This document shows positions 1 through 34,743 of a DNA stretch of 40,678 nucleotides, piece after piece. Position numbers and translations under genes: made by a program. This DNA is from an uncultured Clostridia bacterium (lineage in GTDB: Bacteria > Bacillota > Clostridia > Christensenellales > Aristaeellaceae): positions 1 to 40,678 of the forward strand of contig CAMNGW010000007.1 of NCBI GenBank assembly GCA_946538615.1, written 5' to 3'. Each line of letters begins with the position of its first letter. The stretch's first letter is position 1. Under the pieces are notes generated by a model. That model was not told where the DNA came from. It was given only the letters and a program-made list of their open reading frames with translations, and searched no databases.

Positions 1-1096
1 AGATCCTGATCTGCTGCGGACAGACCTGCTCACAGCTGCGGCACTGCAGGCAGGCCGAGGGCTGTTTGTCAGGGGAGAGCGCACTGAGGGCCATGGGGGC
101 GATAAAGCCTCCGCCGGTAAAGGCGTGCTCATTATACAGGGAGATAAGGTGGGGGATGTCCAGACCCTGGGGACAGTGGCTCACGCAGTAGTGGCAGGCG
201 GTGCAGGGGACGGTCCCCACGGAGAGCATCTGCCTGGCAATGTCCAGAAGCGCTGCCATCTCTGTGTCGCTGAGCTTTTTCTCCTCTGAGAAGGTGGCCA
301 GGTTCTTTTCCAGCTGCTCCTGGGTGGACATGCCCGACAGGATCATGGTGACGGAAGGGATGCTCTGCAGGAAGCGGAAGGCCCAGGCGGGGATTTCCTC
401 ATCCGGACGGAGCGTTTTCAGGGTCTGTTCGTGCTGGGGCAGGAGATGGGCCAGCTTGCCGCCCCTGAGCGGTTCCATGACCCAGACTGGGATGTTCCAT
501 TTCTTAAGCAGTTCCACTTTTTCCTTTCCTTGCTGGAAGGTCCAGTCCAGGAAGTTCAGCTGGAGCTGGCAGAACTCCATATCCTTGCCGTAGGCGTCCA
601 GGAAGCGCCTGAGTGTTTCCAGGCTGCCGTGGCAGGAAAAGCCCAGGTGACGGATGCGGCCCTCCCGCTTCTGCTCCATGAGATAGCTGTAGATGCCGTA
701 TTTCTCATCGTCAAGATAGGCGTCAATATTCATCTCGCAGACATTGTGGAAAAGATAGAAGTCAAAGTAATCCACCTGGAGCTTCTCCAGCTGTCTGGGG
801 AAGATTTCCTTGACTTTTCCCCAGTTCCCGGCATCGTAGCCGGGGAACTTGGTGGCCAGATGGAAGCTGTCCCTGGGGTAGGCGGACAGGGCGGCGCCGA
901 GGACGGTTTCAGAGTTCTCCCCGTGATAGCCCCAGGCGGTATCGTAGTAATTGATGCCGTTTTTCATGGCTGTATCCACCATGCGGCGCGCAGCTGCTTC
1001 GTCAATGCGGCTGTCGTCCCCGTCAATCACTGGCAGGCGCATGGCGCCAAAGCCCAATGCGGACAGTTTTTCGCCCTGAAATTCTCTGTAAATCAT
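1..1096 (-). CDS. Aldo/keto reductase with C-terminal 4Fe-4S ferredoxin-type motifs (partial, runs off the window start)
   Basis: Reverse-strand translation starts MIYREFQGEKLSALGFGAMRLPVIDG..., contains YYDTAWGYHGENSE and C-terminal CTACHYCVSHCPQG and CLQCRSCEQVCPQ. Start codon at 1096-1094. Open at the window edge, so missing from the ORF track. Confidence 0.93.
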   Translation of the reverse strand, partial: MIYREFQGEKLSALGFGAMRLPVIDGDDSRIDEAAARRMVDTAMKNGINYYDTAWGYHGENSETVLGAALSAYPRDSFHLATKFPGYDAGNWGKVKEIFPRQLEKLQVDYFDFYLFHNVCEMNIDAYLDDEKYGIYSYLMEQKREGRIRHLGFSCHGSLETLRRFLDAYGKDMEFCQLQLNFLDWTFQQGKEKVELLKKWNIPVWVMEPLRGGKLAHLLPQHEQTLKTLRPDEEIPAWAFRFLQSIPSVTMILSGMSTQEQLEKNLATFSEEKKLSDTEMAALLDIARQMLSVGTVPCTACHYCVSHCPQGLDIPHLISLYNEHAFTGGGFIAPMALSALSPDKQPSACLQCRSCEQVCPQQIRI

Positions 1097-1112
1097 CTTT
1101 GTTTCCTCCTCG

Positions 1113-1334
1113 TCAGCCCATCCGGGCCTGCTGCCTGTGGATCAGAAAGTCCATCCGGTCCACTCTCTTCTGGCTCGCATGCATTTCATCCATAAGGGTA
1201 CAGCGCCGTTTTCTCATCTGGAACAGCATTTCGGTATATCTGCCTGCTTCATACAGGGAACAGATCATGGCTGCAGTTTCAGGGTCGCACCCGGCATCTG
1301 TCAGCTCCTGTGTGAATTCTTCCGTTCCTGTCAT
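1113..1334 (-). CDS. Small helical hypothetical protein (73 aa), probably co-transcribed with the aldo/keto reductase
   Basis: ORF MTGTEEFTQELTDAGCDPETAAMICSLYEAGRYTEML... ends 16 bp upstream of the AKR start on the same strand. Confidence 0.65.
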   Translation of the reverse strand: MTGTEEFTQELTDAGCDPETAAMICSLYEAGRYTEMLFQMRKRRCTLMDEMHASQKRVDRMDFLIHRQQARMG

Positions 1335-1471
1335 GTTTTCGGAGCCTCCTCACTACAGGATCTTCAGCACTTGCATTGTAAGTCCTTGATAAGATTTAAG
1401 CAAATAATTATAATTCATTTCATGATATGCAAAAAATGTATGCCATGATATTTCAGCAAAGAGGTAAAGGA

Positions 1472-2353
1472 ATGGAGATCCGGACACTGCGCTATTTTCT
1501 GACGGTGGCAAGGGAAGAAAACATGACCCATGCTGCGGAGCTTCTGCATGTGACACAGCCAACCCTCTCCAGGGCCCTCCGGGGGCTTGAGGAGGAGCTG
1601 GGCAAAAAGCTCTTCATCCGTCACAGTTTCAGCATACAGCTGACAGAAGAGGGGAGACTCCTGCGCAGCCGCGCAGAGGACCTTGTCACAATGGCTGACA
1701 AGATTGAACAGGAATTTTTTTCCCTGGACGATATCACGGGGGGCGATCTGTACCTTGGGCTGGCAGAATCCTATCAGATCCGCCACCTGGCCAAGGAGAT
1801 CCGCAATTTCAAGAGCCGCTTCCCCGGCCTCAGGTACCACATCACCAGCGGGGACACCGAACAGGTGACGGAAAAGCTTGACAAGGGCCTTCTGGATTTT
1901 GCCGTGGTCTGCGAATCCCCGGATACCCAGAAATATGGGTCCATCATGTTCCCGCAGGGAGACATCTGGGGCCTTGTTCTGCCGGAGGATGCCCCTTTGG
2001 CCCAAAAAGCATCCATCTGTGCTTCCGATCTGATCGGGGTTCCTCTGTTCACTTCCAGACAGGGCTGGGAGGGCGATATCCGCGGCTGGGCCGGCGAGGT
2101 GTTTGACAGTCTGCAGCTGGAAGGATCCTTCCGCCTGGCCTATAACGCCTCCGTGTTTGTCCGGGAGGGACTGGGGTACCAGCTGACATTTGAGCACCTC
2201 GTTGACGGGGCGGACGGGCTCGTGTTCCGTCCGTTATCTCCGAGACTGGAAGCGGACCTGTACCTGATCTGGGACCGCTACCGGACGTTCACGCCGCTGG
2301 CCGAACGGTTCCTGAAACAGATCAGGGAACATTTTGCGGATCGGGGAACATAA
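1472..2353 (+). CDS. LysR family transcriptional regulator
   Basis: MEIRTLRYFLTVAREENMTHAAELLHVTQPTLSRALRGLEEELGKKLF is a canonical LysR HTH. Internal start at 1472 preferred over 1427. Confidence 0.95.
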   Translation: MEIRTLRYFLTVAREENMTHAAELLHVTQPTLSRALRGLEEELGKKLFIRHSFSIQLTEEGRLLRSRAEDLVTMADKIEQEFFSLDDITGGDLYLGLAESYQIRHLAKEIRNFKSRFPGLRYHITSGDTEQVTEKLDKGLLDFAVVCESPDTQKYGSIMFPQGDIWGLVLPEDAPLAQKASICASDLIGVPLFTSRQGWEGDIRGWAGEVFDSLQLEGSFRLAYNASVFVREGLGYQLTFEHLVDGADGLVFRPLSPRLEADLYLIWDRYRTFTPLAERFLKQIREHFADRGT

Positions 2354-2376
2354 GCTCAGGAAAGGATACAGCAGGA

Positions 2377-3105
2377 ATGTTGTCTGTAAGCATTACGATA
2401 CGCCGCATGGATTATGAGGGAACACTGCGCTCCGTTTTCCCTGCCCTTTCAGGCAGGGTACGTGAGATGGACCCGGAGAGCCATCTGATCATACGGCTCT
2501 TCCAGCATCTGGGCGATGCCGCACTGCCGGTCCTCCTTGGCGTTATGCGGAAACTGGAAACCGGGACAAAAAACGAGCTCCTGGTCCGCACCCTGAATGC
2601 CTGCGGGCCGGAACTCAGGGAAAAGCTTGATGAGGAGCTCAGGAAAGACCCCTTTGGCAGGTGCTTTTCAGAGGGCGGCATGGAGGTGACAAATGAAGAC
2701 GGCATCCTCCTGCACTTCCGTCACGTTGAGGTGGACTATGCTGCGCTGCTGAAAAATGACCAGGTCCAGGACCTGATATCCGGCCATCTCGGGAGGTTCT
2801 CGTCCCTGGCACGGAAGGCTGCGGACCTCGCGGCGGCGCATGCACCGGACTCTCTGGAGAAAACGGTGCTGACCCTGCTGTGGAGAGACGACAATAAAGA
2901 AAGACTGAAGGCCGTGCTCGGGCACGTGCTTGACGTGAACGGCATCCATCTTGAAATCGGAGAGATCCGCATTGTACAGGAGGAAGATCCGCATGAGGAG
3001 GCGGCCGGGACAGCACGGCCCTTTGTGCTGACACCCGGGATGGAGGACGACATCCTGTCTGCACTTGCTGCGTACCTGCGTGAGCAGGTGTCCCATGAAC
3101 CATGA
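2377..3105 (+). CDS. Hypothetical protein, 242 aa, family not recognised, first gene of the Cas10-like cluster
   Basis: Long ORF, RBS-like AGGAAAGG upstream, 48 bp before the next ORF, same strand. No TM segments or familiar motif seen. Confidence 0.7.
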   Translation: MLSVSITIRRMDYEGTLRSVFPALSGRVREMDPESHLIIRLFQHLGDAALPVLLGVMRKLETGTKNELLVRTLNACGPELREKLDEELRKDPFGRCFSEGGMEVTNEDGILLHFRHVEVDYAALLKNDQVQDLISGHLGRFSSLARKAADLAAAHAPDSLEKTVLTLLWRDDNKERLKAVLGHVLDVNGIHLEIGEIRIVQEEDPHEEAAGTARPFVLTPGMEDDILSALAAYLREQVSHEP

Positions 3106-3153
3106 GGGGTGCCGCAGCGCCCCTGATCCAGGACAAGGTAAGGTGAGGCACAC

Positions 3154-4488
3154 ATGTTGAAGAAAAAGGCAGGGGAAGTGCTGCGCATCGCCGCCCCTGC
3201 GGTGCTGGAAAGTCTTGTCAGTGTCGTGATCGCGTCCATCGACACGAAGATGATCTCCTCTCTGGGCAAGGGTGCGATTTCCGCAGTCTCGTTTACCACG
3301 CAGCCAAAGCTCATCTTCTTCTCTATTTTTTTCGCACTGGGGACAACCGTCTCCATGTTCGTGTCCCAGGCTTACGGGAAGAAGGACAAAGAAGAGGCGA
3401 ATGCCTATCTGATCACGGTCCTGCGTCTTGCCGTGGCCATATCGCTGGGGCTTGGCGCGGCGCTGTTTTTCCTCGCACGGCCGGTTATGGTCCTGTGCAA
3501 CAGGCAGAGTGACACGCTGGAGATGTCCGTCACATTTTTCAGGATCCTCATGGCGTTTTCTCTGTTCCAGGCGGTATCTGTCATCCTCAACGCAGCGCTG
3601 CGGGGGATCGGGAGGACCGGGGTGACACTGGTCTCGAATATAGCCATGGGCGCTGTGGACATCGTGGTCAACTATCTGCTTATTGAGGGCCACGCGGGCT
3701 TTCCCCGTCTGGAGGTTGCCGGCGATGCCATTGCCACCGTGATGGGCAGCGCAGCGGCCTGTGCCGTCAGCCTGGCTGCCATTTTACAGGGAGACGGCTT
3801 TCTGAGCCTTCGCGGTTTTTTTTCGTGCCGCCGCAGCGCGGCGGAGGATATGCGCAGGAACATAAGGGTCAAGGCGGGCAATGTCATTGCTGAGAACCTG
3901 TTCACACGTGTGGGTTTCCTGCTCTCGAGCATTATTCTGTCAGGCCTGGACTCCTCTGAAACAGCGGTCTACCATGTGGGCATGATCCTGCTCAACTATT
4001 CCTTTGCCTTCGGCGACGGCATCCAGAGTGCCGTGGTGGCACTGACCGGCAGGAGCATGGGGGCGGCCCGGTACGATGAGCTGAGAGCCTATCTGCGGAT
4101 CTGTGAGGTCATAGGAATGGTATGTTCCCTGTGCCTCAGCGTGCTCTATGTGGCCGGTTCCGGCTGGTTCTTCAGTCAGTTTTTCACGCAGGCACAGGAT
4201 ATCCGTACAGGCTTTGCCACAAGCTGCATTGCGGCTGTGCTTACGTTTCTGCAGATCATCCGCATTGTCCATATCGGGGGGATGCGGGGCATGGGAGAGG
4301 TCCAGGACCCGAGGCGCATTGCGACCCTGTGCGTATTTATCCTCAACCCGGCATGCAGTGTGCTGTTTACCGCCGTGTTCCCTTTCGGGATCTGGGGCAT
4401 ATGGGCAGCTTCGGTGGTCACGCAGGCTGTCTGGTTCATCATGGGGACAGTAAAATGCAGGAAGCACCTGGCCGGGATGGGGACATAA
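3154..4488 (+). CDS. MATE-family multidrug/Na+ antiporter-like membrane protein
   Basis: 444 aa, about 12 hydrophobic segments. EVLRIAAPAVLESLVSVVIASIDTKMISSLGKGAISAVSFTTQPKLIFFSIFFALGTTVSMFVSQAYGKKD is typical of MATE proteins. Confidence 0.92.
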   Translation: MLKKKAGEVLRIAAPAVLESLVSVVIASIDTKMISSLGKGAISAVSFTTQPKLIFFSIFFALGTTVSMFVSQAYGKKDKEEANAYLITVLRLAVAISLGLGAALFFLARPVMVLCNRQSDTLEMSVTFFRILMAFSLFQAVSVILNAALRGIGRTGVTLVSNIAMGAVDIVVNYLLIEGHAGFPRLEVAGDAIATVMGSAAACAVSLAAILQGDGFLSLRGFFSCRRSAAEDMRRNIRVKAGNVIAENLFTRVGFLLSSIILSGLDSSETAVYHVGMILLNYSFAFGDGIQSAVVALTGRSMGAARYDELRAYLRICEVIGMVCSLCLSVLYVAGSGWFFSQFFTQAQDIRTGFATSCIAAVLTFLQIIRIVHIGGMRGMGEVQDPRRIATLCVFILNPACSVLFTAVFPFGIWGIWAASVVTQAVWFIMGTVKCRKHLAGMGT

Positions 4489-4504: not shown

Positions 4505-6046
4505 ATGGAAAGGACGTTAATGGACAGGGAGGTCCTCTGCATTCTGGATACCAGACAGATCCAGAGGTACATGTTCCATACCAATACATATATTGATACG
4601 CTCGGGGGAAGCGATCTGCTGACCCACATCCTCCGGGATGCGATTCTCTTCGCGCTTACCCATATCGACACGCCCCTTTCTGAAGATGAATATGATATTT
4701 CCGATGAGGCAGATATCAGCTGCATACCCTATTTCACATCAGATCAGATCAGGTTCCAGCTCATCATCTGTGCGGCTGGCAATGCGCTGTGCATTGTCCG
4801 GACGGGCTCGCTCGCGCAGAAAATCATCAGGAAGATATCAAGGTACTACCTTGAAACCGGCTATTCCCTGAATCTGGCTGCGGCAGCCATTGAAAAGACG
4901 GACAACATGGGGAACGATATCTTCTGTCTGTACCAGAAGCTGAACAGGATCAAGGCCGCTTCGGAGATATCCGATCCGGCAGAGGCTCTTCCGGTCGTGA
5001 TCCATGAGGCCCGCACAGGGGAGCCTGCAATCGGTTTTGACGAAGAAGCCGGCGATTATATTTCGAGGTCCTCCCAGCTGCGCCGCATTGAGGCGAAAAA
5101 ACGCGGGAAAGTGATAGGGCCCACGGAGATTATGACGGCAAAAGCAGCGGACGGGAAAGAGTACCTCGCCGTCATCCATGCCGACGGCAATAATCTGGGC
5201 ATCACGATCGGCAGTATCCTTCAGGCCACATCCGGGTATCAGGAAGGGATTCTGCTAAGGAGAAAAATCAACCGGAACATCACGACCGTGTACGGCAACG
5301 TGATGCGAAGGACCATCGGGGAACTGAAGGATTATTTTGTTTCCCTCGGTGAAAAGGCTGAAAATTTTCCCCTTGCTTTCCAGGTCATCCATCAGGCGGG
5401 GGACGATATCAACATTCTGTGCAGTGCATCGCTTGCTTTCCCTTTCCTCCGTTTTTTCTACCGCAATCTGGAAGGCTCCATGCTCTGGGACGATGGGAGA
5501 AGGAAAATCCCCCTGTATGTCTGTGCGGGCGTCTCCTTTGTGACTGTGGGCAGTACGTTCCACGCAGCGTTTATGCAAGCGGAGGAATGCTGCAAAAGCG
5601 CAAAGGCAGCGGCCAAAAAGGAAAGCAACCTCCGAAGCGGCCTTGCCGGCAACTGGATCGATTTTCAGGTCTGCGATGCCCCCAATGTGCAGGCGCTGGA
5701 CCTGCTCAGGGAGCGCTCCTATACGACCGCTTCCGGGGTCGATCTGATGATGAGGCCCTACTGCCTTGACAGGGAGGCAAAAGACTCGCCGTATGCTTTT
5801 GACAGGCTGATGGAGCGCGCATCAGCCCTGAAATCCGCGGGGCTTGACCAGAGACAGAGGAACATGGTGAAGGAAGCGTACCATTTTGGCCGGCTGGAAT
5901 TTGGCCAATGGGTCAGGTCGGCAAAAGCGCATGGACTGGATTTCACAGGTATGCTGGGATCACCTTTCTGTGCAGACGGGGACAGAAAGATGCATGCTGT
6001 CTGGTTCGATCCCGTGGAGATCATGGACTTTGTCCCTGAGAGGTAA
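4505..6046 (+). CDS. Cas10/Cmr2-like palm-domain protein (type III CRISPR-like nucleotidyl cyclase), no HD domain seen
   Basis: N-terminus VLCILDTRQIQRYMFHTNTYIDTLGGSDLLTHIL resembles Cas10/Cmr2-like N-termini. Palm motifs: YLAVIHADGNNLG (Asp227) and FQVIHQAGDDINIL (Asp300/Asp301, in place of GGDD). RBS AAAGGAA upstream. Confidence 0.82.
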   Translation: MERTLMDREVLCILDTRQIQRYMFHTNTYIDTLGGSDLLTHILRDAILFALTHIDTPLSEDEYDISDEADISCIPYFTSDQIRFQLIICAAGNALCIVRTGSLAQKIIRKISRYYLETGYSLNLAAAAIEKTDNMGNDIFCLYQKLNRIKAASEISDPAEALPVVIHEARTGEPAIGFDEEAGDYISRSSQLRRIEAKKRGKVIGPTEIMTAKAADGKEYLAVIHADGNNLGITIGSILQATSGYQEGILLRRKINRNITTVYGNVMRRTIGELKDYFVSLGEKAENFPLAFQVIHQAGDDINILCSASLAFPFLRFFYRNLEGSMLWDDGRRKIPLYVCAGVSFVTVGSTFHAAFMQAEECCKSAKAAAKKESNLRSGLAGNWIDFQVCDAPNVQALDLLRERSYTTASGVDLMMRPYCLDREAKDSPYAFDRLMERASALKSAGLDQRQRNMVKEAYHFGRLEFGQWVRSAKAHGLDFTGMLGSPFCADGDRKMHAVWFDPVEIMDFVPER

Positions 6047-6049
6047 TGT

Positions 6050-7810
6050 ATGCTGTATCTGGAAATCACAACAATCGGAGAAATGGCCTTTTCCCATTCC
6101 ATGAAGCTGGAAGAAGGATACCGTTTCGATATCCCTTTTGACGAAACTTCCCTCCCTTATATCCCACTGGCCGGCCTTCTCAGAAAGGAAGGGCTGCTGC
6201 CAGAAGGAACGGAGCTGAGCTTTGCCCATCCCAAGGGCTATGCAGGCATGGTGCGGAATGCGGACATGCTGCTTCGGAACTCGCCCGGCTGTGCCCGGTT
6301 CATCCGTGCATGCTTCACCAATGAGCGGTTTCTGAAAAAAGAGGGCTTCCGGGTGAGGACGCTCAAGGCAGGGCTGACGTTCCGGGCAGCACTCGTCCTG
6401 CCCAAGCATGGGGCGGAGCAGGCGCGGGCGGCACTGGAAAATATCTCGCATCTGGGGTTCACAGCGGAAGGGATCACCGGTGAGACGGTATTCAGGACCG
6501 TTGAGGATGAGCCGGCGATGGCTGGCGGGGCAGAGCTCCGCACGCTTTGCGACTATACAGCGCTGGAATATTCAGCCACGCTTTTTGCGCCGGCCTGCTT
6601 CCACGTGCCGTATGGGGACGGGCTGACAACAAGGCTGTACGTGCCGGGAGCTGTTATGATGCAGTACCTGCAGGGCCATATGGAACAGAAGGATGACACG
6701 GACTGGGAGTCCCTTCGCTTTTCCAATGCCTATATGGCAAGAAAGGGGGAGCGCCTTGTTCCGGTGCCCATGTCCATGGCCGTGATCAAACAGGACAAGC
6801 ACTCGCTCCGGTACCGGTTCGCTTCGGAAAGGGATCCCCGGCTGGTGGAGCAGGTCACCGGTCTGGACGGTGCGTTCACCGCTGATCTGGACACAAGCCT
6901 TGTCAGGCACACGACCCCGGCGACAGAGCACATCAGTGACGGGGAGGGCGGGCTCCTTGATGCGCTGAGCGCCGGGCAGAGCTTCCGGGGAATGATATAC
7001 GGAAAAGATGGAGACCTCCGCCGACTCGCGCAATGGATGGGGGAAAATCCGGTCTTCCATGTGGGAAAGCTTTCGGACACCGGCTTCGGGGAGATGTACT
7101 GTAAGGTGGAACGGCTCCTGGAGAGGGAGGTCCCGCTCGAGGCGCCTTCACGCATGTTTGACGTGCTGTGCGTTTCAGATGTGCTGCTCCTCAACAGCAG
7201 AGGGATGAACGTCTTCAGTGCGGAGGACCTTGTGGAAGAACTGGAGCACAGGCTTGGCGCGCCCGGAAGGCTGAGGATTGTCAACAGATATACCGGGGTG
7301 CACCGCGATTTCAGTGAGAACCCGCGCTGGGGGAGAGACAACCCGACAGTGCGTTTTCTGGCCAAAGGCTCAACGGTGCGCGTGGGAACCGCAGACGGCG
7401 GGTACATCGATATTTCGCCCATCAGGCACTGCTTTGTGGGGGAGAGGAACGCGGAGGGATACGGTGAGATTTGCGTGTTCCAGGCAGGGGAGCAGTATTA
7501 TCGGCACGCGGCCAATCTGCCTCCGGAAAGGTACCAGGTGGATTACCCCATCAGCATGCAGCTGGCCCAGATCGGCGCCCGTTTTACACAGAAGGTGATC
7601 CTGGACATGCTGCACAGCCGGATCAGGGGCCTGGGGGCAGCGGACCGCGAGGAACATCAGAGGGGGATCTCTGCGGATGAACTGATGCCTGCCGATCTTC
7701 TGGCATTTCTGAAGGAAAACTATGATCCGGAGCTATCTGATGAGACAGTCAGGGCGTGGTACCGGGAAGGATTGGAGGAAAACAGTGATGAATGGGATTT
7801 CCATTGGTAA
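6050..7810 (+). CDS. Multi-RAMP (Cas5/Cas7-fold) protein, Csx10-like
   Basis: 586 aa. N-terminal FDIPFDETSLPYIPLAGLLRKEG (RAMP-type 'LPYIPG..lkGllR'), SFRGMIYGK...HVGKLSDTGFGEMYCKVE, and TVRFLAKGSTVRVG...IRHCFVGERNAEGYGEICVFQ (Csx10-like 'GSv...GerraeGfGrv'). Start 1 bp after the upstream TAA. Confidence 0.78.
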   Translation: MLYLEITTIGEMAFSHSMKLEEGYRFDIPFDETSLPYIPLAGLLRKEGLLPEGTELSFAHPKGYAGMVRNADMLLRNSPGCARFIRACFTNERFLKKEGFRVRTLKAGLTFRAALVLPKHGAEQARAALENISHLGFTAEGITGETVFRTVEDEPAMAGGAELRTLCDYTALEYSATLFAPACFHVPYGDGLTTRLYVPGAVMMQYLQGHMEQKDDTDWESLRFSNAYMARKGERLVPVPMSMAVIKQDKHSLRYRFASERDPRLVEQVTGLDGAFTADLDTSLVRHTTPATEHISDGEGGLLDALSAGQSFRGMIYGKDGDLRRLAQWMGENPVFHVGKLSDTGFGEMYCKVERLLEREVPLEAPSRMFDVLCVSDVLLLNSRGMNVFSAEDLVEELEHRLGAPGRLRIVNRYTGVHRDFSENPRWGRDNPTVRFLAKGSTVRVGTADGGYIDISPIRHCFVGERNAEGYGEICVFQAGEQYYRHAANLPPERYQVDYPISMQLAQIGARFTQKVILDMLHSRIRGLGAADREEHQRGISADELMPADLLAFLKENYDPELSDETVRAWYREGLEENSDEWDFHW

Positions 7811-8192
7811 GCTGCCCCGCAAAGGCTTCGTGCTGGCCTACTTCCCGGACAGACTGGTTTTTTCACCTTATTGTGTGAAGGGGGAAGAACTTCTGACACA
7901 GGAAAAAGAACTTTTCGAAAAGGTCTGCCCGGATGAGTGCCATTTTTTTGATCATGATACAGAATACAGGCTGGTGCAGAGGCGTTCGAGAGGGGAAGTG
8001 ATTGAACTTGTCCTCACTGCCGATGAAGAGGAAGGGACCGATCCGGACCTTCTCTTTACAGAGGACGTTCTGGTCAGCAAGGAGTATACGGAAACCGGCA
8101 TGCCGGAGAAGCTGCGGGTGACCAGCCGCTACCGTTACTCGGACAACGATACCCTGATCCTTGACATGTACAGGATCAGCACGGTTGACTGA
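7788..8192 (+). CDS. Small protein, possibly Csx19-like (type III-D-associated)
   Basis: Start MNGISIGKLPRKGFVLAYFPDRLVFSPY overlaps the RAMP gene by 23 bp and follows GGAGG. Layout (LAY..., EYRLVQRRSRGEVIELVLTADEEEG, LFTEDVLVSKEYTETGMPEKLRVTSRYRYSDNDTLILDMYRIS) loosely recalls Csx19. Assignment tentative. Confidence 0.5.
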   Translation: MNGISIGKLPRKGFVLAYFPDRLVFSPYCVKGEELLTQEKELFEKVCPDECHFFDHDTEYRLVQRRSRGEVIELVLTADEEEGTDPDLLFTEDVLVSKEYTETGMPEKLRVTSRYRYSDNDTLILDMYRISTVD

Positions 8193-8222
8193 ATGGTTTT
8201 TGCGCTTTTTGTGAGGTGACGC

Positions 8223-8996
8223 ATGTTTATTAATCTGAGCAACCATCCGAGCAGCGGGTGGCCCCAAAAGGAGCTCGAAGCCGCATCGGCCTTCGGCCGT
8301 GTCATGGACATCCCCTTCCCGGCTGTAGCCGCCGGGGGCACAGAGGAGGAAGTCCTGCGCCTGGCGGCCGGATACCTGAAAAAGATCCCGGCAGAAGACA
8401 GCGGGCCCGTGATGGTCACGGGTGAATATTCCTTTGTCTATGCCCTGGTGGACGCGCTTGTGGAAAAAGGCCGCCGTGTGGTCTGCCCGCAGGCAGATGT
8501 CAGGGTTTCCAGCACGCCGGGGCTGAATGGGGCCTCAGAGAGAAAGCTGGTCTTCGATTTCCGCAGATTTGTGGATTATGAGCGTTATCCGGGTGTCCTT
8601 GAGCCTGTGAAGGTGCGGCGCCCCATTTTTCTGAACTGCAGTACCCACTACGCAAGCAGTACCTGGGATGAACGGGCAAGGGAGATGGCAGGACACTACG
8701 GGGAGATTGTGGACTTGCCCGTCATGCCTCTGTCCGGGAGCGGACAGGACAGGCTGAACCAGGCAGACAGGTACCTGGAGGCAATTGACCGGATCGGTCC
8801 GTCTGCGGTGCTGCTGGACGGGGAATTCTGCACATTTTATATGCTGGCAAACGCACTGTACCGGAAAGGCTGTACAGTGCTGGTGAAATGCAGCAGCCGG
8901 GACACCGTGGAAAGACAGGAAAGGGACGGGACGGTCACAAAGATCACGCAGTACCGTTTCGTCCGCTACCGCCGGGTCCGGCCGCTGGGGGGATGA
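8223..8996 (+). CDS. Tandem-duplicated small Rossmann/CARF-like protein, possible ring nuclease or cyclic-nucleotide sensor
   Basis: 257 aa with two aligned halves: MFINLSNHPSSGW...GRVMDIPFPAV...VMVTGEYSFVYALVDALVEKGRRVV...FDFRRFVDYERYP and PIFLNCSTHYASSTW...GEIVDLPVMPL...VLLDGEFCTFYMLANALYRKGCTVL...YRFVRYRR. RBS GAGGTGA. Confidence 0.7.
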   Translation: MFINLSNHPSSGWPQKELEAASAFGRVMDIPFPAVAAGGTEEEVLRLAAGYLKKIPAEDSGPVMVTGEYSFVYALVDALVEKGRRVVCPQADVRVSSTPGLNGASERKLVFDFRRFVDYERYPGVLEPVKVRRPIFLNCSTHYASSTWDERAREMAGHYGEIVDLPVMPLSGSGQDRLNQADRYLEAIDRIGPSAVLLDGEFCTFYMLANALYRKGCTVLVKCSSRDTVERQERDGTVTKITQYRFVRYRRVRPLGG

Positions 8997-9007: not shown

Positions 9008-9031
9008 GCACCGCTTAGGCGGTGTTTTTTT
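9008..9031 (+). terminator. Rho-independent terminator of the Cas10-like cluster
   Basis: CACCGC-TTAG-GCGGTG followed by TTTTTTT, just after the 8996 stop. Confidence 0.88.
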
Positions 9032-28108: not shown

Positions 28109-28422
28109 TGTGTCAGTGAACATCCCGGGGGTTATTCACGGTGAAGCGGTGCCCGCACGGCAGGGAGCTGTCAAAGGCGGATGAGCGTTTACGCTTTCCT
28201 GAGTGCCCGGCGGACAGGGGAGACGATCCGGGTGATGCGGGAGCACCTGTGCAGCGGAAAGGTAGGGAACAGAATGTGCATTCAGTCCCTGAAAAGGCCG
28301 GAAAAGGCAGACGGGGATGGTCTGTCCTCAATGGTTCCTTGCGGAGGAAAGCGGGGAAGCGGCTTGCAATCCGTGAAGATCCGGGTACAATGAATGCAGA
28401 AAAAGAAACAGGAGGCGTTTAT

Positions 28423-30777
28423 ATGAGAAATGGGTCCGGCAGGTACCGGGACACTGTACCTGGCACATCTGTCACTGTGGACGCACTGGCGGACGTGGCG
28501 GTTGCGGTTGTGGTGCTTATCGCTGTACTTCTGATCCAGTTTGTCGCAGTACCCTATGTCAATGAGACGTATCACTATACAGCGGAAACTGTGGGAATTG
28601 ATTACGGTTTATCCGGGCTTGTCAGAATCATCTTCACATCACCGCCGACAACGTGGTTCCAGACAAAGCTGCTGTCTTTTGATCTGCCGAATTATGCCTG
28701 GTACACTGCCCTGCTGCTGGCCGTTACGGTTCAGTTGATCACGGCCCATATTCAGTCCTGCATTGAGCTGTCCTGGGTGACGCGCTTTCATCCTGCCGTG
28801 CAGGTTGCTGTCCGGTTCCTCAAGGCATGGCTGATGACATCGTTGATGATGTCCCTTCTGACATTGGCGCTGATAACTGTTTGTCCTCAGAATGTGCCCC
28901 TGCTCTACCAGCTCTTTGAGATGTTCCTGTTCTGCCTGCCGGGCCTGATCCATACCATCATACGGTCCAGAAGGCCCAGGAAGACAAGACCCTCCCTCTG
29001 GGCGGGTCTGCCCCTGATGACTGTCAATGCACTTCTGGCTCTGCTGATGGTGGGCTATCCCCTGGTAGGCTCCCTTCTGCTGATCGCGGCAGACTATCTG
29101 AGCACACAATGGAGCGCACCGGGAACAGATACAAAACGAATGGACCGGGAGCGGCCCTTTGAGCGGCTGGCTGCGGTGGTCATATCCTCGGTGGCCATTG
29201 CTGTCATTGGGGCGGTCTTCATTATGCCGCAAGTGAAGATGCACGGACCGACCATAGAGACACACTATGAGTATTACAGTGTCAAAGCCATTGAGGCAGA
29301 CGGGCGGCGGGCCGTGTTCCTGCGTTCAGATGGTGCCGCTGTTGACCAGAACAACCGGGTCTATACGGATCATGTCCGTCAGGTCTCGCTGTGCACTTCC
29401 AATGCCTTTTTCCTGAAAGATAACGGAGACCTGGTTGTCGTTTCATCACCTGAATACGGACCTGCTCCATTTCTCAAGGACATTGTCTGGACCGATTCCT
29501 TTGATGACGTCCTGATCGCCGTCGACGGGAAGGGCAACCTTTGGGGGTACGGTGACCTGACGGGCTATCTGCCGGAAGGTGCATACTGTGCCAAGCCAAC
29601 GCTGATTGCGGAGAATCTGCACCTGGTGCAGGCCGATATCGGACCGGACCATATCCTGATGATTGACGGGGATGGCAATCTGTATGGCATGGGCGGGAAC
29701 AAAACGGGCCAGCTTGGCAATGGTGCCTGTGCCATAAAGCCCCAGCCCGTCAGCCAGATTATGGCAGGCGTTCAGCAAGCCAAGGCGGGGAACGGCTTTT
29801 CTCTGGCCCTTTTGAAGGACGGGACTGTCTGGGGGTGGGGGCGCAATGACGTCGGCCAGCTTGGTACAGGGGTCAGGATCAGAAAGTTCACCATCGGAAG
29901 GGGCTATGCTGTCAATGACGGGCTTGCCTTTGTGCCTGAGCCGACTCAGCTTTCCTTCGCTGATACCGCCATTGTGCAGATTGCAGTCGGAGCAGAAGGG
30001 GCTTTTGCCCTTGACAGTGAACAGAACATGTGGGTGTGGGGAAAGAATGTGAACAGCGAATCCATCGCGGAGCCTGTAAAGAAATGGCACAGCGTGGCAT
30101 GGATTGCAGACAACAAGGTCCAGCAAGGGGTCCTTGACCAGATCTGCAACTATGTGGCTGACGATGGGAAGGCTTATAAGGTTGCACCGGGCCAATTGCA
30201 GGAGAGCGATACAACGACAGAAACCATCGTGCTGGTCTATGACCCGATGAGCCCCGACTGGATGCCAAAACCAGTGGAGGAAATCAGTACCCGTATGGAG
30301 GAATGGCTGAAAAGCCTCCATATTTTCCCCGAACCTGAACCGGAAGCGGCACCTGAACCCATTGTCTCTGTTATCAGAGCTCCTGAGCGGAGGGACCGGT
30401 CCTGCGAGCTCCAGTTCTTCGGCGGGCATATGTACCAGATCATTCCTGAATACATGTATATGAAGAATGCACAGAGCTATTGTGAGAGCATGGGCGGACA
30501 TCTGGCGACCATTACCTCGGCAGAAGAGCACCAGTTTCTCACGGCCATGGTGGAATCAACAGATGGCGAATATGGAAGATTCTTCAGCATTGGCTTAACA
30601 AACGATCAGAACTTCGCCTGGGTCACAGGTGAATCCACAGCATATCTCAGCAAGCTGAATCTCCGGCCCGCCTATACACTTGAAAACGGTGAGGGATATA
30701 TCAGTCAGGACGGAAAGCTGAATGTGGGCGCAATCATCAAGCATCCGTTCATTTGTGAATGGGATTTCGATGAATGA
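28423..30777 (+). CDS. Membrane protein with RCC1-type repeats and a C-terminal C-type lectin-like domain
   Basis: N-terminal hydrophobic segments; RCC1-like GMGGNKTGQLGNGACAIKPQPV, WGWGRNDVGQLGTG; C-terminal GHMYQIIPEYMYMKNAQSYCESMGGHLATITSAEEHQFL...FICEWDFDE. Start after GGAGGCGTTTAT. Confidence 0.82.
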   Translation: MRNGSGRYRDTVPGTSVTVDALADVAVAVVVLIAVLLIQFVAVPYVNETYHYTAETVGIDYGLSGLVRIIFTSPPTTWFQTKLLSFDLPNYAWYTALLLAVTVQLITAHIQSCIELSWVTRFHPAVQVAVRFLKAWLMTSLMMSLLTLALITVCPQNVPLLYQLFEMFLFCLPGLIHTIIRSRRPRKTRPSLWAGLPLMTVNALLALLMVGYPLVGSLLLIAADYLSTQWSAPGTDTKRMDRERPFERLAAVVISSVAIAVIGAVFIMPQVKMHGPTIETHYEYYSVKAIEADGRRAVFLRSDGAAVDQNNRVYTDHVRQVSLCTSNAFFLKDNGDLVVVSSPEYGPAPFLKDIVWTDSFDDVLIAVDGKGNLWGYGDLTGYLPEGAYCAKPTLIAENLHLVQADIGPDHILMIDGDGNLYGMGGNKTGQLGNGACAIKPQPVSQIMAGVQQAKAGNGFSLALLKDGTVWGWGRNDVGQLGTGVRIRKFTIGRGYAVNDGLAFVPEPTQLSFADTAIVQIAVGAEGAFALDSEQNMWVWGKNVNSESIAEPVKKWHSVAWIADNKVQQGVLDQICNYVADDGKAYKVAPGQLQESDTTTETIVLVYDPMSPDWMPKPVEEISTRMEEWLKSLHIFPEPEPEAAPEPIVSVIRAPERRDRSCELQFFGGHMYQIIPEYMYMKNAQSYCESMGGHLATITSAEEHQFLTAMVESTDGEYGRFFSIGLTNDQNFAWVTGESTAYLSKLNLRPAYTLENGEGYISQDGKLNVGAIIKHPFICEWDFDE

Positions 30778-33033: not shown

Positions 33034-34743
33034 TCATCCCTTCCGGATCAGGCATTCTTTCTCTTTGAAAGCGAATCCATATTTCAGAATTTTCTCTTTC
33101 GGAACCCCACGGGAGAGCAGCGCCGTCTCATACTGCTTTTCTTCAATCTGTTTCAGCGCGTTTGCTGCAGTGTCTTCCAGCGAACTCTCGTCATCTTCTT
33201 TGTCAAACACTTTGAACTCCAAAATAGCCGCGGGCTGGTCTGTCTTTTTAGGGACCATCATGACATCGTACCTGCCGTACCCGCTTTCCCGGTTGGATGT
33301 AATTTCATAGTCACGCATGTTTTCCGCCAGGAGCCCAAGTACAAGACCGTGATAAAAATTCTCCGGCATCCGACCAGAAGGCCGTTTCCCACCGTCAAAA
33401 TAACTCATGCTGTTCATCATGATCTCGTTCAGTGAACGACGTATGCCACGGGTGTCTCCCTTAAGCAGGGCTTCCGTGAAAGGAGACAATCCGCCGGATG
33501 TCTGTGCAAACCAGTCCCGGAACATGATTCTGAACATGCGCCTGACTTCGAGATTGGTCAGCTTCAGCGTGTAGAGCCGGTCTGTCCCTTCCCTGACAGC
33601 TTCCTTCTCTGTCATTGCGGTAACAATTTTCACGTACCCGGTTGCAAGCAGCAGGCTCCAGACCGCATCTGCGTTAGTATCCAGTTCGTTATAGATGATC
33701 TGTTCATTAATAGGTACGGTTACTTCTCCGCCGTTCATCAGGACCTCAAACAGACTCTTCATCTCCGGAACCCCCTGCCGGAGAAGTCTGGCAATCAGAC
33801 CGTTGCCACTGGAGTTGGCCCAGTATGTATCCAGTGTCCGGAAATTCAGATAGTTGGTCACAGACCAGGGATTGTAGATGTCCTGTACACCGCCAAAGGA
33901 AAACCCGTCATACCAGGTTTTGACTTCCTGCTTGTCTGCTTCGACAAAACCCTGCTGATCCAGCGCGTCAAAAACCTCATCTTCCGTAAATCCGAAACAG
34001 GTTGTGTAAAATGGGGATGTTGTCGTGATCACAGTCAGATTATTTAAATCAGAAAAAACGGATTCCATGCTCACGCGGGTAATTCCTGTCATGATGCCCT
34101 GCTCCATAGACATGTTGGTCTTAAAAGCGTTGTTGAACATGGTCCGGGTAAAGACCACCAGCTCATCCCAGAAACCATGAATATAAGCTTCCTGCAAAGG
34201 GGTATCATATTCATCCAGCAGGATCAGAACTTTCTTTCCGTGAATCTTTTCCAGCAGCGTTGAAAGCAAATTCAGGGACAGGGCTGCGTCATCATCCCGC
34301 ATATCTTCCCGGATCTGGTCGAGGGCTGCCTGCTCGTTCCGGTCCAGTATGTCTGTTCTGTACAGTTCAGGATGCGTGGAAAACAATTTGACAATCGTCT
34401 TCTTCATCTGAATCATCGTGCTTGCAAAGGTGCTTCCTTTGATGCCTGCAAAGCTCAGAAAAATCACTGGCCACTTTCCCTGCTGTGCCTGCATTCCTGG
34501 ATATTCCCAGACTTTCAGTCCCTCAAACAGTTCCCCGCGGTTCGCGTATTTATTTGAAAAAAAACAGTTCAGCATGGACATGTTAAGGGTTTTGCCGAAT
34601 CGCCTGGGCCGAGTGATCAGAGTAACTGCATCGTGTCGTTCCCACCAGTCACGGATCAGTCCCGACTTGTCCACATAAAAATCACCATTGTTCCGCAGCA
34701 TTTCAAAGTCCTGAATCCCTGTACCGATTTCCCGTTTCATCAT
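33034..34743 (-). CDS. AAA-ATPase-like protein with C-terminal PD-(D/E)XK nuclease-like domain
   Basis: KREIGTGIQDFEMLRNNGDFYVDKSGLIRDWWERHDAVTLITRPRRFGKTLNMSML (Walker A), VLILLDEYDTPLQEAY (Walker B), YGRYDVMMVPKKTDQPAAILEFKVF (D...ExK). Confidence 0.92.
   Translation of the reverse strand: MMKREIGTGIQDFEMLRNNGDFYVDKSGLIRDWWERHDAVTLITRPRRFGKTLNMSMLNCFFSNKYANRGELFEGLKVWEYPGMQAQQGKWPVIFLSFAGIKGSTFASTMIQMKKTIVKLFSTHPELYRTDILDRNEQAALDQIREDMRDDDAALSLNLLSTLLEKIHGKKVLILLDEYDTPLQEAYIHGFWDELVVFTRTMFNNAFKTNMSMEQGIMTGITRVSMESVFSDLNNLTVITTTSPFYTTCFGFTEDEVFDALDQQGFVEADKQEVKTWYDGFSFGGVQDIYNPWSVTNYLNFRTLDTYWANSSGNGLIARLLRQGVPEMKSLFEVLMNGGEVTVPINEQIIYNELDTNADAVWSLLLATGYVKIVTAMTEKEAVREGTDRLYTLKLTNLEVRRMFRIMFRDWFAQTSGGLSPFTEALLKGDTRGIRRSLNEIMMNSMSYFDGGKRPSGRMPENFYHGLVLGLLAENMRDYEITSNRESGYGRYDVMMVPKKTDQPAAILEFKVFDKEDDESSLEDTAANALKQIEEKQYETALLSRGVPKEKILKYGFAFKEKECLIRKG

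Follow-up and report, generated by a model that had tools for sequence, protein, structure and literature searches.

A Cas10-Csx10-Csx19-Csx20 cassette with a MATE transporter: an array-less, backbone-less derivative of type III-D CRISPR-Cas

Can the part of a type III CRISPR system that makes the signal work without a guide RNA? This question is raised by a contig of 40,678 nucleotides (CAMNGW010000007.1, assembly GCA_946538615.1; hereafter the window) from an uncultured Clostridia bacterium of the family Aristaeellaceae, in which genes for a Cas10-like polymerase, a Csx10-like RAMP protein, Csx19 and a doubled Csx20 ring nuclease are followed by an intrinsic terminator. An initial annotation, made from the letters and their open reading frames (ORFs), had described these four same-strand genes as a CRISPR-less, type III-derived signalling module. 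This central claim is backed here by profiles, predicted folds and comparative genomics: all four ORFs and the terminator were recovered at their positions on the forward strand, and the similarity of the four products to the corresponding PADLOC profiles is far above chance (Table 1). The unit had nevertheless been drawn too small, since a MATE-family transporter gene lying immediately upstream was overlooked; the unit begins with this gene, or perhaps at a promoter-like site further upstream. The parts are firmly established, as is their linkage; the reading as a whole, that of a CRISPR-independent nucleotide-messenger unit built on the base of a III-D complex, with a product limited by Csx20 and a MATE output, is in our view probable, with substantial room for doubt.

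When 85,462 species genomes were scanned with the module Cas10s, 24 further loci came to light, and these provided the members used for comparison. The window Cas10 (513 aa) is nearest to the Cas10 of type III-D and lacks an HD domain, its sequence opening with the first palm domain. A sequence search of the PDB (2e-15) and a profile comparison (5e-27) both matched it to 8s9t_C, the Cas10 chain of Synechocystis III-Dv, and the same chain was the best PDB match found by Foldseek (2e-23, TMq 0.78) for its AlphaFold model, which has a mean predicted local distance difference test score (pLDDT) of 88. D227 and the G299-D300-D301 motif are invariant in 23 of 23 members, and the module Cas10s form a single clade (support 100/100). 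The polymerase is in short a III-D branch Cas10 with intact palm motifs.

The other subunits of the complex base were identified in a similar manner, and the module possesses both the Csx10 (Cas5) and the Csx19 that usually accompanies it in type III-D. The Cas5_IIId profile matched the Csx10 of all 20 members compared, while the Csx10 family profile matched 8s9t_A, the Cas7-Cas5-Cas11 chain of III-Dv, at 7.5e-8. This chain was also the best PDB match by Foldseek (1.7e-27, TMq 0.62) of the Csx10 model (mean pLDDT 82), so that both modelled proteins led to III-Dv chains, in line with the families first proposed for them. Since the Csx10 model aligns lengthwise with the fusion chain, Csx10 would harbour a Cas7-like domain, now degenerate, and probably also a tail of the Cas11 type, the assignment of its helical C-terminal part being tentative. 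The Cas7-like domain aligned with canonical Csx10 at 99.9% probability and lacks the VDxD, RxKG and RTRGLG (RG(x)G) signatures, which five canonical relatives keep with little or no variation; from this loss we infer that the domain has given up the Cas7 mode of binding or cutting RNA. The PADLOC Csx19 profile matched all 15 members compared, and one locus (L054, 5288-7501) encodes a natural Csx10-Csx19 fusion of 737 aa. According to the III-Dv structure, Csx19 has its place at the base of the complex, flanked by Cas5 and Cas10; it touches the CRISPR RNA (crRNA) and is required for assembly, and Cas10 changes conformation upon target binding (PMC11026444). The module corresponds to this base without the sensing filament, and either constitutive activity or a different ligand is therefore to be expected.

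The last product of the cassette belongs to the Csx20 ring nuclease family by its profile and by its NHP, W, D and GE residues, although its score against NCBIfam NF040559 (5e-10) lies under the curated cut-off. Residues N4, N7, H8, P9, W13, G25, D29, G67 and E68 are conserved among members. In the window and in several relatives two Csx20 halves are fused, of which the first keeps the family residues and the second is degenerate. A Csx20 was shown in a published assay to degrade cyclic tetra-adenylate (cA4) and, with more enzyme, cyclic tri-adenylate (cA3) (PMC12409355). This activity points to a cyclic oligoadenylate as the product of the module, and by analogy with the enzyme assayed it is plausible that Csx20 controls the level of the signal.

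The MATE transporter belongs to the unit. Of 23 readable loci, 22 have a MATE gene or its remnant next to the module, some of these genes being replacements from other MATE lineages; with the same queries, none was detectable near 10 canonical III-D loci. Fourteen module MATEs make up one clade (support 100/100). Across hosts, proteins of this main clade share 53-63% identity with the window protein, whereas no other MATE exceeds 36% in those genomes of the same genus that were searched. Distances between Cas10s and between MATEs correlate (Mantel r 0.68, p 4e-4). The MATEs of other lineages are those of L047 and L054, which differ from each other, and that of a rabbit-gut clade, a third lineage; L045 carries a remnant with an internal deletion, and the gene at L047 (5836-6822), of a distant lineage, is frameshifted. 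The window protein has the MatE fold (matches to PDB MATEs of about 1e-32), and its D30 aligns with the aspartate of the first transmembrane helix (TM1) of PfMATE. Because D30 is invariant in 20 of 20 members, transport by the MATE is probably intact.

Searches at increasing taxonomic distance, over 60 relatives and 396 genomes of the order, returned the module solely from the window's own genome, and its distribution is therefore patchy. A search at class level yielded a Cas10 of about 38% identity in two genomes, both rabbit-gut metagenome-assembled genomes (MAGs) included in the 24 loci, in which MATE, a double Csx20, Cas10 and Csx10 are adjacent and Cas7 is absent; a phylum search added canonical III-D loci only. 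No copy was found in viral contigs, in phage records or, by DNA search, in plasmids, and the protein matches on plasmids, only cyanobacterial Cas10s at about 20-24% identity, were rejected. The hosts are for the most part herbivore-gut MAGs, and those with readable sample names derive from goat, deer, reindeer, rumen and rabbit gut. The latter are labelled mostly Clostridia or Lachnospiraceae, with one Atopobiaceae, and labels such as Chloroflexi or Bacteroidales may reflect binning errors. As determined by tblastn, the core order Cas10-Csx10-Csx19 is constant and Csx20 and MATE shift around it, giving four orders: MATE-Cas10-Csx10-Csx19-Csx20 in the window, MATE-Csx20-core, Csx20-core-MATE and Csx20-MATE-core. 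Comparison of the flanks disclosed no further specific gene family recurrent across lineages; the PADLOC matches of flanking genes (pVip-like, TIR-like and Leo-like) were each one-off and were discarded as partners. Some of these flanks have features of their own. At L055, a transposase-like ORF (6674-8110) with a homologue in the L040 flank lies between Csx20 and Cas10, and at L053 a 1063-aa protein (1015-4206) with a weak TIR-like match (SAVED_TIR profile) is encoded about 60 bp upstream of Csx20. A macro-domain-like protein is encoded directly upstream of Cas10 at L046 (4029-4562), in the usual place of Csx20, and a second such gene occurs near the L059 module.

All five genes are under purifying selection, with ratios of nonsynonymous to synonymous substitution rates (dN/dS) mostly of about 0.06-0.25; a low-divergence pair of Csx10 genes (L048/L050) gave 0.38 on few changes, and an anomalous value for the MATE pair L059/L063, probably due to a reading-frame problem in L063, was disregarded. 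These data bear on the view that the module is a decaying III-D remnant with an accidental MATE neighbour. Damaged loci, such as L045 with its MATE deletion and L042 with its interrupted Csx10 reading, are what decay would leave, but dN/dS values well under 1 in five genes, invariant catalytic motifs, four gene orders, and a gene set common to Clostridia and an Atopobiaceae-labelled MAG make this view exceedingly hard to credit.

Whether the module depends on CRISPR was addressed at several levels. The initial annotation had reported neither array nor Cas1, Cas2, Cas6, Cas7 or Cas11 in the window. No array of short-spaced direct repeats was indeed found in these 40.7 kb, no RAMP gene (PF03787) on the contig, which is the entire window, and no Cas1 in its MAG, but a Cas7-like and probably a Cas11-like part turned out to lie inside Csx10; for Cas2, Cas6 and Cas11, not all ORFs of the window were scanned. 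Canonical Cas7 queries found no Cas7 at any of the 25 loci, and no CRISPR array was detected in the window or in the ca. 330 kb flanking the other 24 loci, the rest of the host genomes not having been scanned for arrays; neither a Cas7 backbone nor an array or crRNA supply was thus found at these loci. A repeat at the end of L043 was rejected as an array, its spacers being themselves repeated. By comparison, arrays of at least 4 repeats adjoin 5 of 7 canonical loci. Cas1 was absent from 14 of 25 hosts. The survey of homologous loci bears out the co-occurrence of the module genes away from arrays. PF03787, a profile that misses the module's own Csx10, detected no RAMP gene in 21 of the 24 hosts besides the window's MAG, among them G334 and G256 with a completeness of 94% and 96%, while 10 of 10 canonical III-D genomes, used as a positive control, gave at least 5 matches each. 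For lack of Cas7 and of an array, the module does not qualify as a type III-D CRISPR-Cas system; it is most aptly described as a III-D derivative that has a transporter but neither array nor backbone.

A guide could still be provided in trans, the three proteins borrowing Cas7 and crRNAs from a canonical III-D locus of the same cell. For array-less III-G loci, a supply of crRNA in trans has been suggested. Such a locus exists in the window's MAG (81% complete, 6% contaminated), split over the small contigs C262 (L003) and C338 (L008); it encodes Cas6, a single Csx20, Cas10, a Csx10 with a Cas7 domain, two Cas7 proteins and Csx19, and carries the 32-base CRISPR repeat GTATCYGTYCCTACACAGGGATGAGTTGCGAC. 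RAMP genes also occur in 3 of the 24 other hosts. The initial annotation had conceded that array, Cas6 and Cas7 genes elsewhere in the genome, with products assembling with these proteins, would speak against it, and the genes themselves are present. The canonical locus, however, supplies its own cas10 and csx10, separate from those of the module (the two Cas10s are 22% identical), and 21 of 24 hosts are RAMP-less, for which reasons the module family appears independent of Cas7 in trans. With the crucial Cas7-type residues of Csx10 lost as well, we regard a borrowed guide as improbable.

Based on these features, the array-less derivative would keep the base of the complex, namely Cas10, Csx10 (Cas5) and Csx19, as a guide-independent messenger synthase, in which the intact Cas10 palm would make a small, probably cyclic, adenylate from ATP. 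Synthesis might be constitutive, or else triggered by a ligand of the cell, for instance a non-CRISPR RNA, on its binding to Csx10 and Csx19. Csx20 would break down the product and so set its level, and the MATE would act as the output arm, the messenger either exiting through it or controlling it. The MATE is the sole recurrent candidate for an output, as no CARF or SAVED effector is encoded. The product, the trigger, the direction of MATE action and any role in defence or stress are what we infer from these parts.

These two modes of output lead to different expectations. If the MATE were a nucleotide-gated effector, the Cas10 product would open or poison it and de-energise the membrane on infection, as in Cam1- or CorA-like systems, or else a constant messenger would silence it in a Panoptes-like manner. 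Membrane effectors are established for type III signalling, including Cam1 (PMC10808066), a CorA homologue (PMC12669027) and 2TMbeta (PMC12657230), and the MATE is the one candidate effector that recurs at the loci. Yet it bears no fused sensor domain, its TM1 aspartate, expected of a working transporter, is invariant, and the swaps of lineage (L047, L054 and the rabbit-gut clade) are easier to conceive for generic transport than for an evolved allosteric gate. Because MATE lineages were repeatedly replaced and the transport aspartate was conserved, transport of the messenger, or of something coupled to it, is favoured over a finely evolved gate, and gating seems to us rather unlikely. In the converse version, which is conceivable if doubtful, the guide-free Cas10-Csx10-Csx19 complex would make an oligonucleotide, a dedicated MATE exporter would use it to signal to neighbouring cells or the host, and Csx20 would guard the producer. 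In Listeria, export of cyclic di-AMP has been tied to multidrug transporters, a precedent that comes from a transporter family other than MATE.

Several observations weigh against a CRISPR-independent messenger unit with a MATE output. At about 1.3 kDa, cA4 is large for a MATE substrate, which argues against simple export, and the MATE has no additional nucleotide-sensing domain. The Cas5 part of Csx10 keeps many conserved residues, so that some residual RNA binding may persist. No Csx20 was found at L047, and neither MATE nor Csx19 at L042. Finally, most hosts are draft MAGs, many of them fragmentary, and a missing Cas7 in any single host is consequently weak evidence.

Table 1. Features of the cassette and its upstream region in the window.
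Feature	Position	Strand	Evidence and remarks
Promoter-like site, TTGATA-17-TATAAT	1386..1414	+	Consensus match, 11/12
LysR-type regulator	1472..2353	+	Pfam PF00126, PF03466; 24 bp ahead of next gene
Uncharacterised 242-aa protein, neighbour specific to the window	2377..3105	+	No Pfam, NCBIfam or PADLOC match
MATE-family transporter, conserved unit member	3154..4488	+	PF01554 3e-39; 16 bp ahead of Cas10
Cas10-like palm polymerase without HD domain	4505..6046	+	PADLOC Cas10d 8e-70
Csx10-like RAMP: degenerate Cas7-like domain, Cas5, helical C-terminal part	6050..7810	+	PADLOC Cas5_IIId/Csx10 2e-16
Csx19	7788..8192	+	PADLOC Csx19 1e-14; best start ATG 7788, overlaps Csx10 stop
Double Csx20, ring nuclease family, CARF-like	8223..8996	+	PADLOC Csx20 1e-38, two matching halves
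Intrinsic terminator, hairpin and T-run	9008..9031	+	Sequence

The promoter-like site ahead of the LysR gene is the sole forward-strand candidate between 1200 and 9200, in a region where total matches are near chance level, and may drive the whole unit. A LysR regulator at the head of the putative operon would suit a role in regulated efflux rather than phage defence, in which the Cas10 complex tunes a drug exporter after sensing a small ligand or RNA made under stress from antibiotics or bile. Drugs are exported by MATE transporters, and the readable sample names point to herbivore guts. The LysR gene was, however, not found at the other 24 loci, and the fact that a ring nuclease and a palm cyclase have been kept, while consistent with a messenger pathway, is silent on its purpose; we hold this explanation to be quite improbable. 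The 242-aa protein was likewise not found at the other loci. Elsewhere in the window, a protein with RCC1 repeats and a C-type lectin domain (28141-30777) is encoded downstream of two GH32 glycosidases, and an AAA-ATPase-like/PDDEXK_9 protein is encoded on the reverse strand (33034-34743).

The III-D/III-Dv effector of Synechocystis (8s9t) resembles the module in its base subunits, Cas10 and Csx10 by sequence and fold and Csx19 by profile only. In contrast to it, the module has no further Cas7 subunits and no adjoining array, its Cas7-like domain is degenerate, and a MATE transporter stands in place of CARF effectors. HRAMP and ARAMP are likewise array-less and type III-derived (PMC12669027, PMC8730458), but they are described with divergent Cas5/Cas7 homologues and nucleases, whereas the module has an apparently active Cas10, as judged from its motifs, and no nuclease gene, and by gene content it falls outside these groups. 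The mCpol/Panoptes systems also associate a Cas10-related polymerase with a membrane protein in the absence of CRISPR (PMC12657230, PMC12657218), and provide a precedent for a Cas10 relative working without CRISPR (PMC12657230). Panoptes nonetheless combines a minimal mCpol with a 2TMbeta effector, while here a near full-length Cas10 is found with Csx10, Csx19, Csx20 and, as the membrane protein, a MATE. The double Csx20 shares the family match and conserved residues of characterised Csx20 ring nucleases (PMC12409355), from which it differs by its fused, partly degenerate architecture. By analogy, a messenger linked to a membrane protein recalls the CorA/SAM-AMP, Cam1 and Csx23 systems, but those are crRNA-guided and their effectors have a dedicated messenger-sensing domain.

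No description of a MATE-associated Cas10 system was found in the literature searched, which excludes preprints and most subscription journals, and the evidence as a whole suggests an undescribed nucleotide-signalling system. If this is true, the signalling head of type III CRISPR can live alone, without guide RNA or backbone, its polymerase, assembly factor and ring nuclease having been retained and paired with a transporter. If the messenger were moreover secreted, a CRISPR machine would have been turned into a device for intercellular nucleotide signalling. Two questions become testable: how a Cas10 may be switched without a guide-target duplex, and whether messengers of the Cas10 type can be exported or act on transporters.

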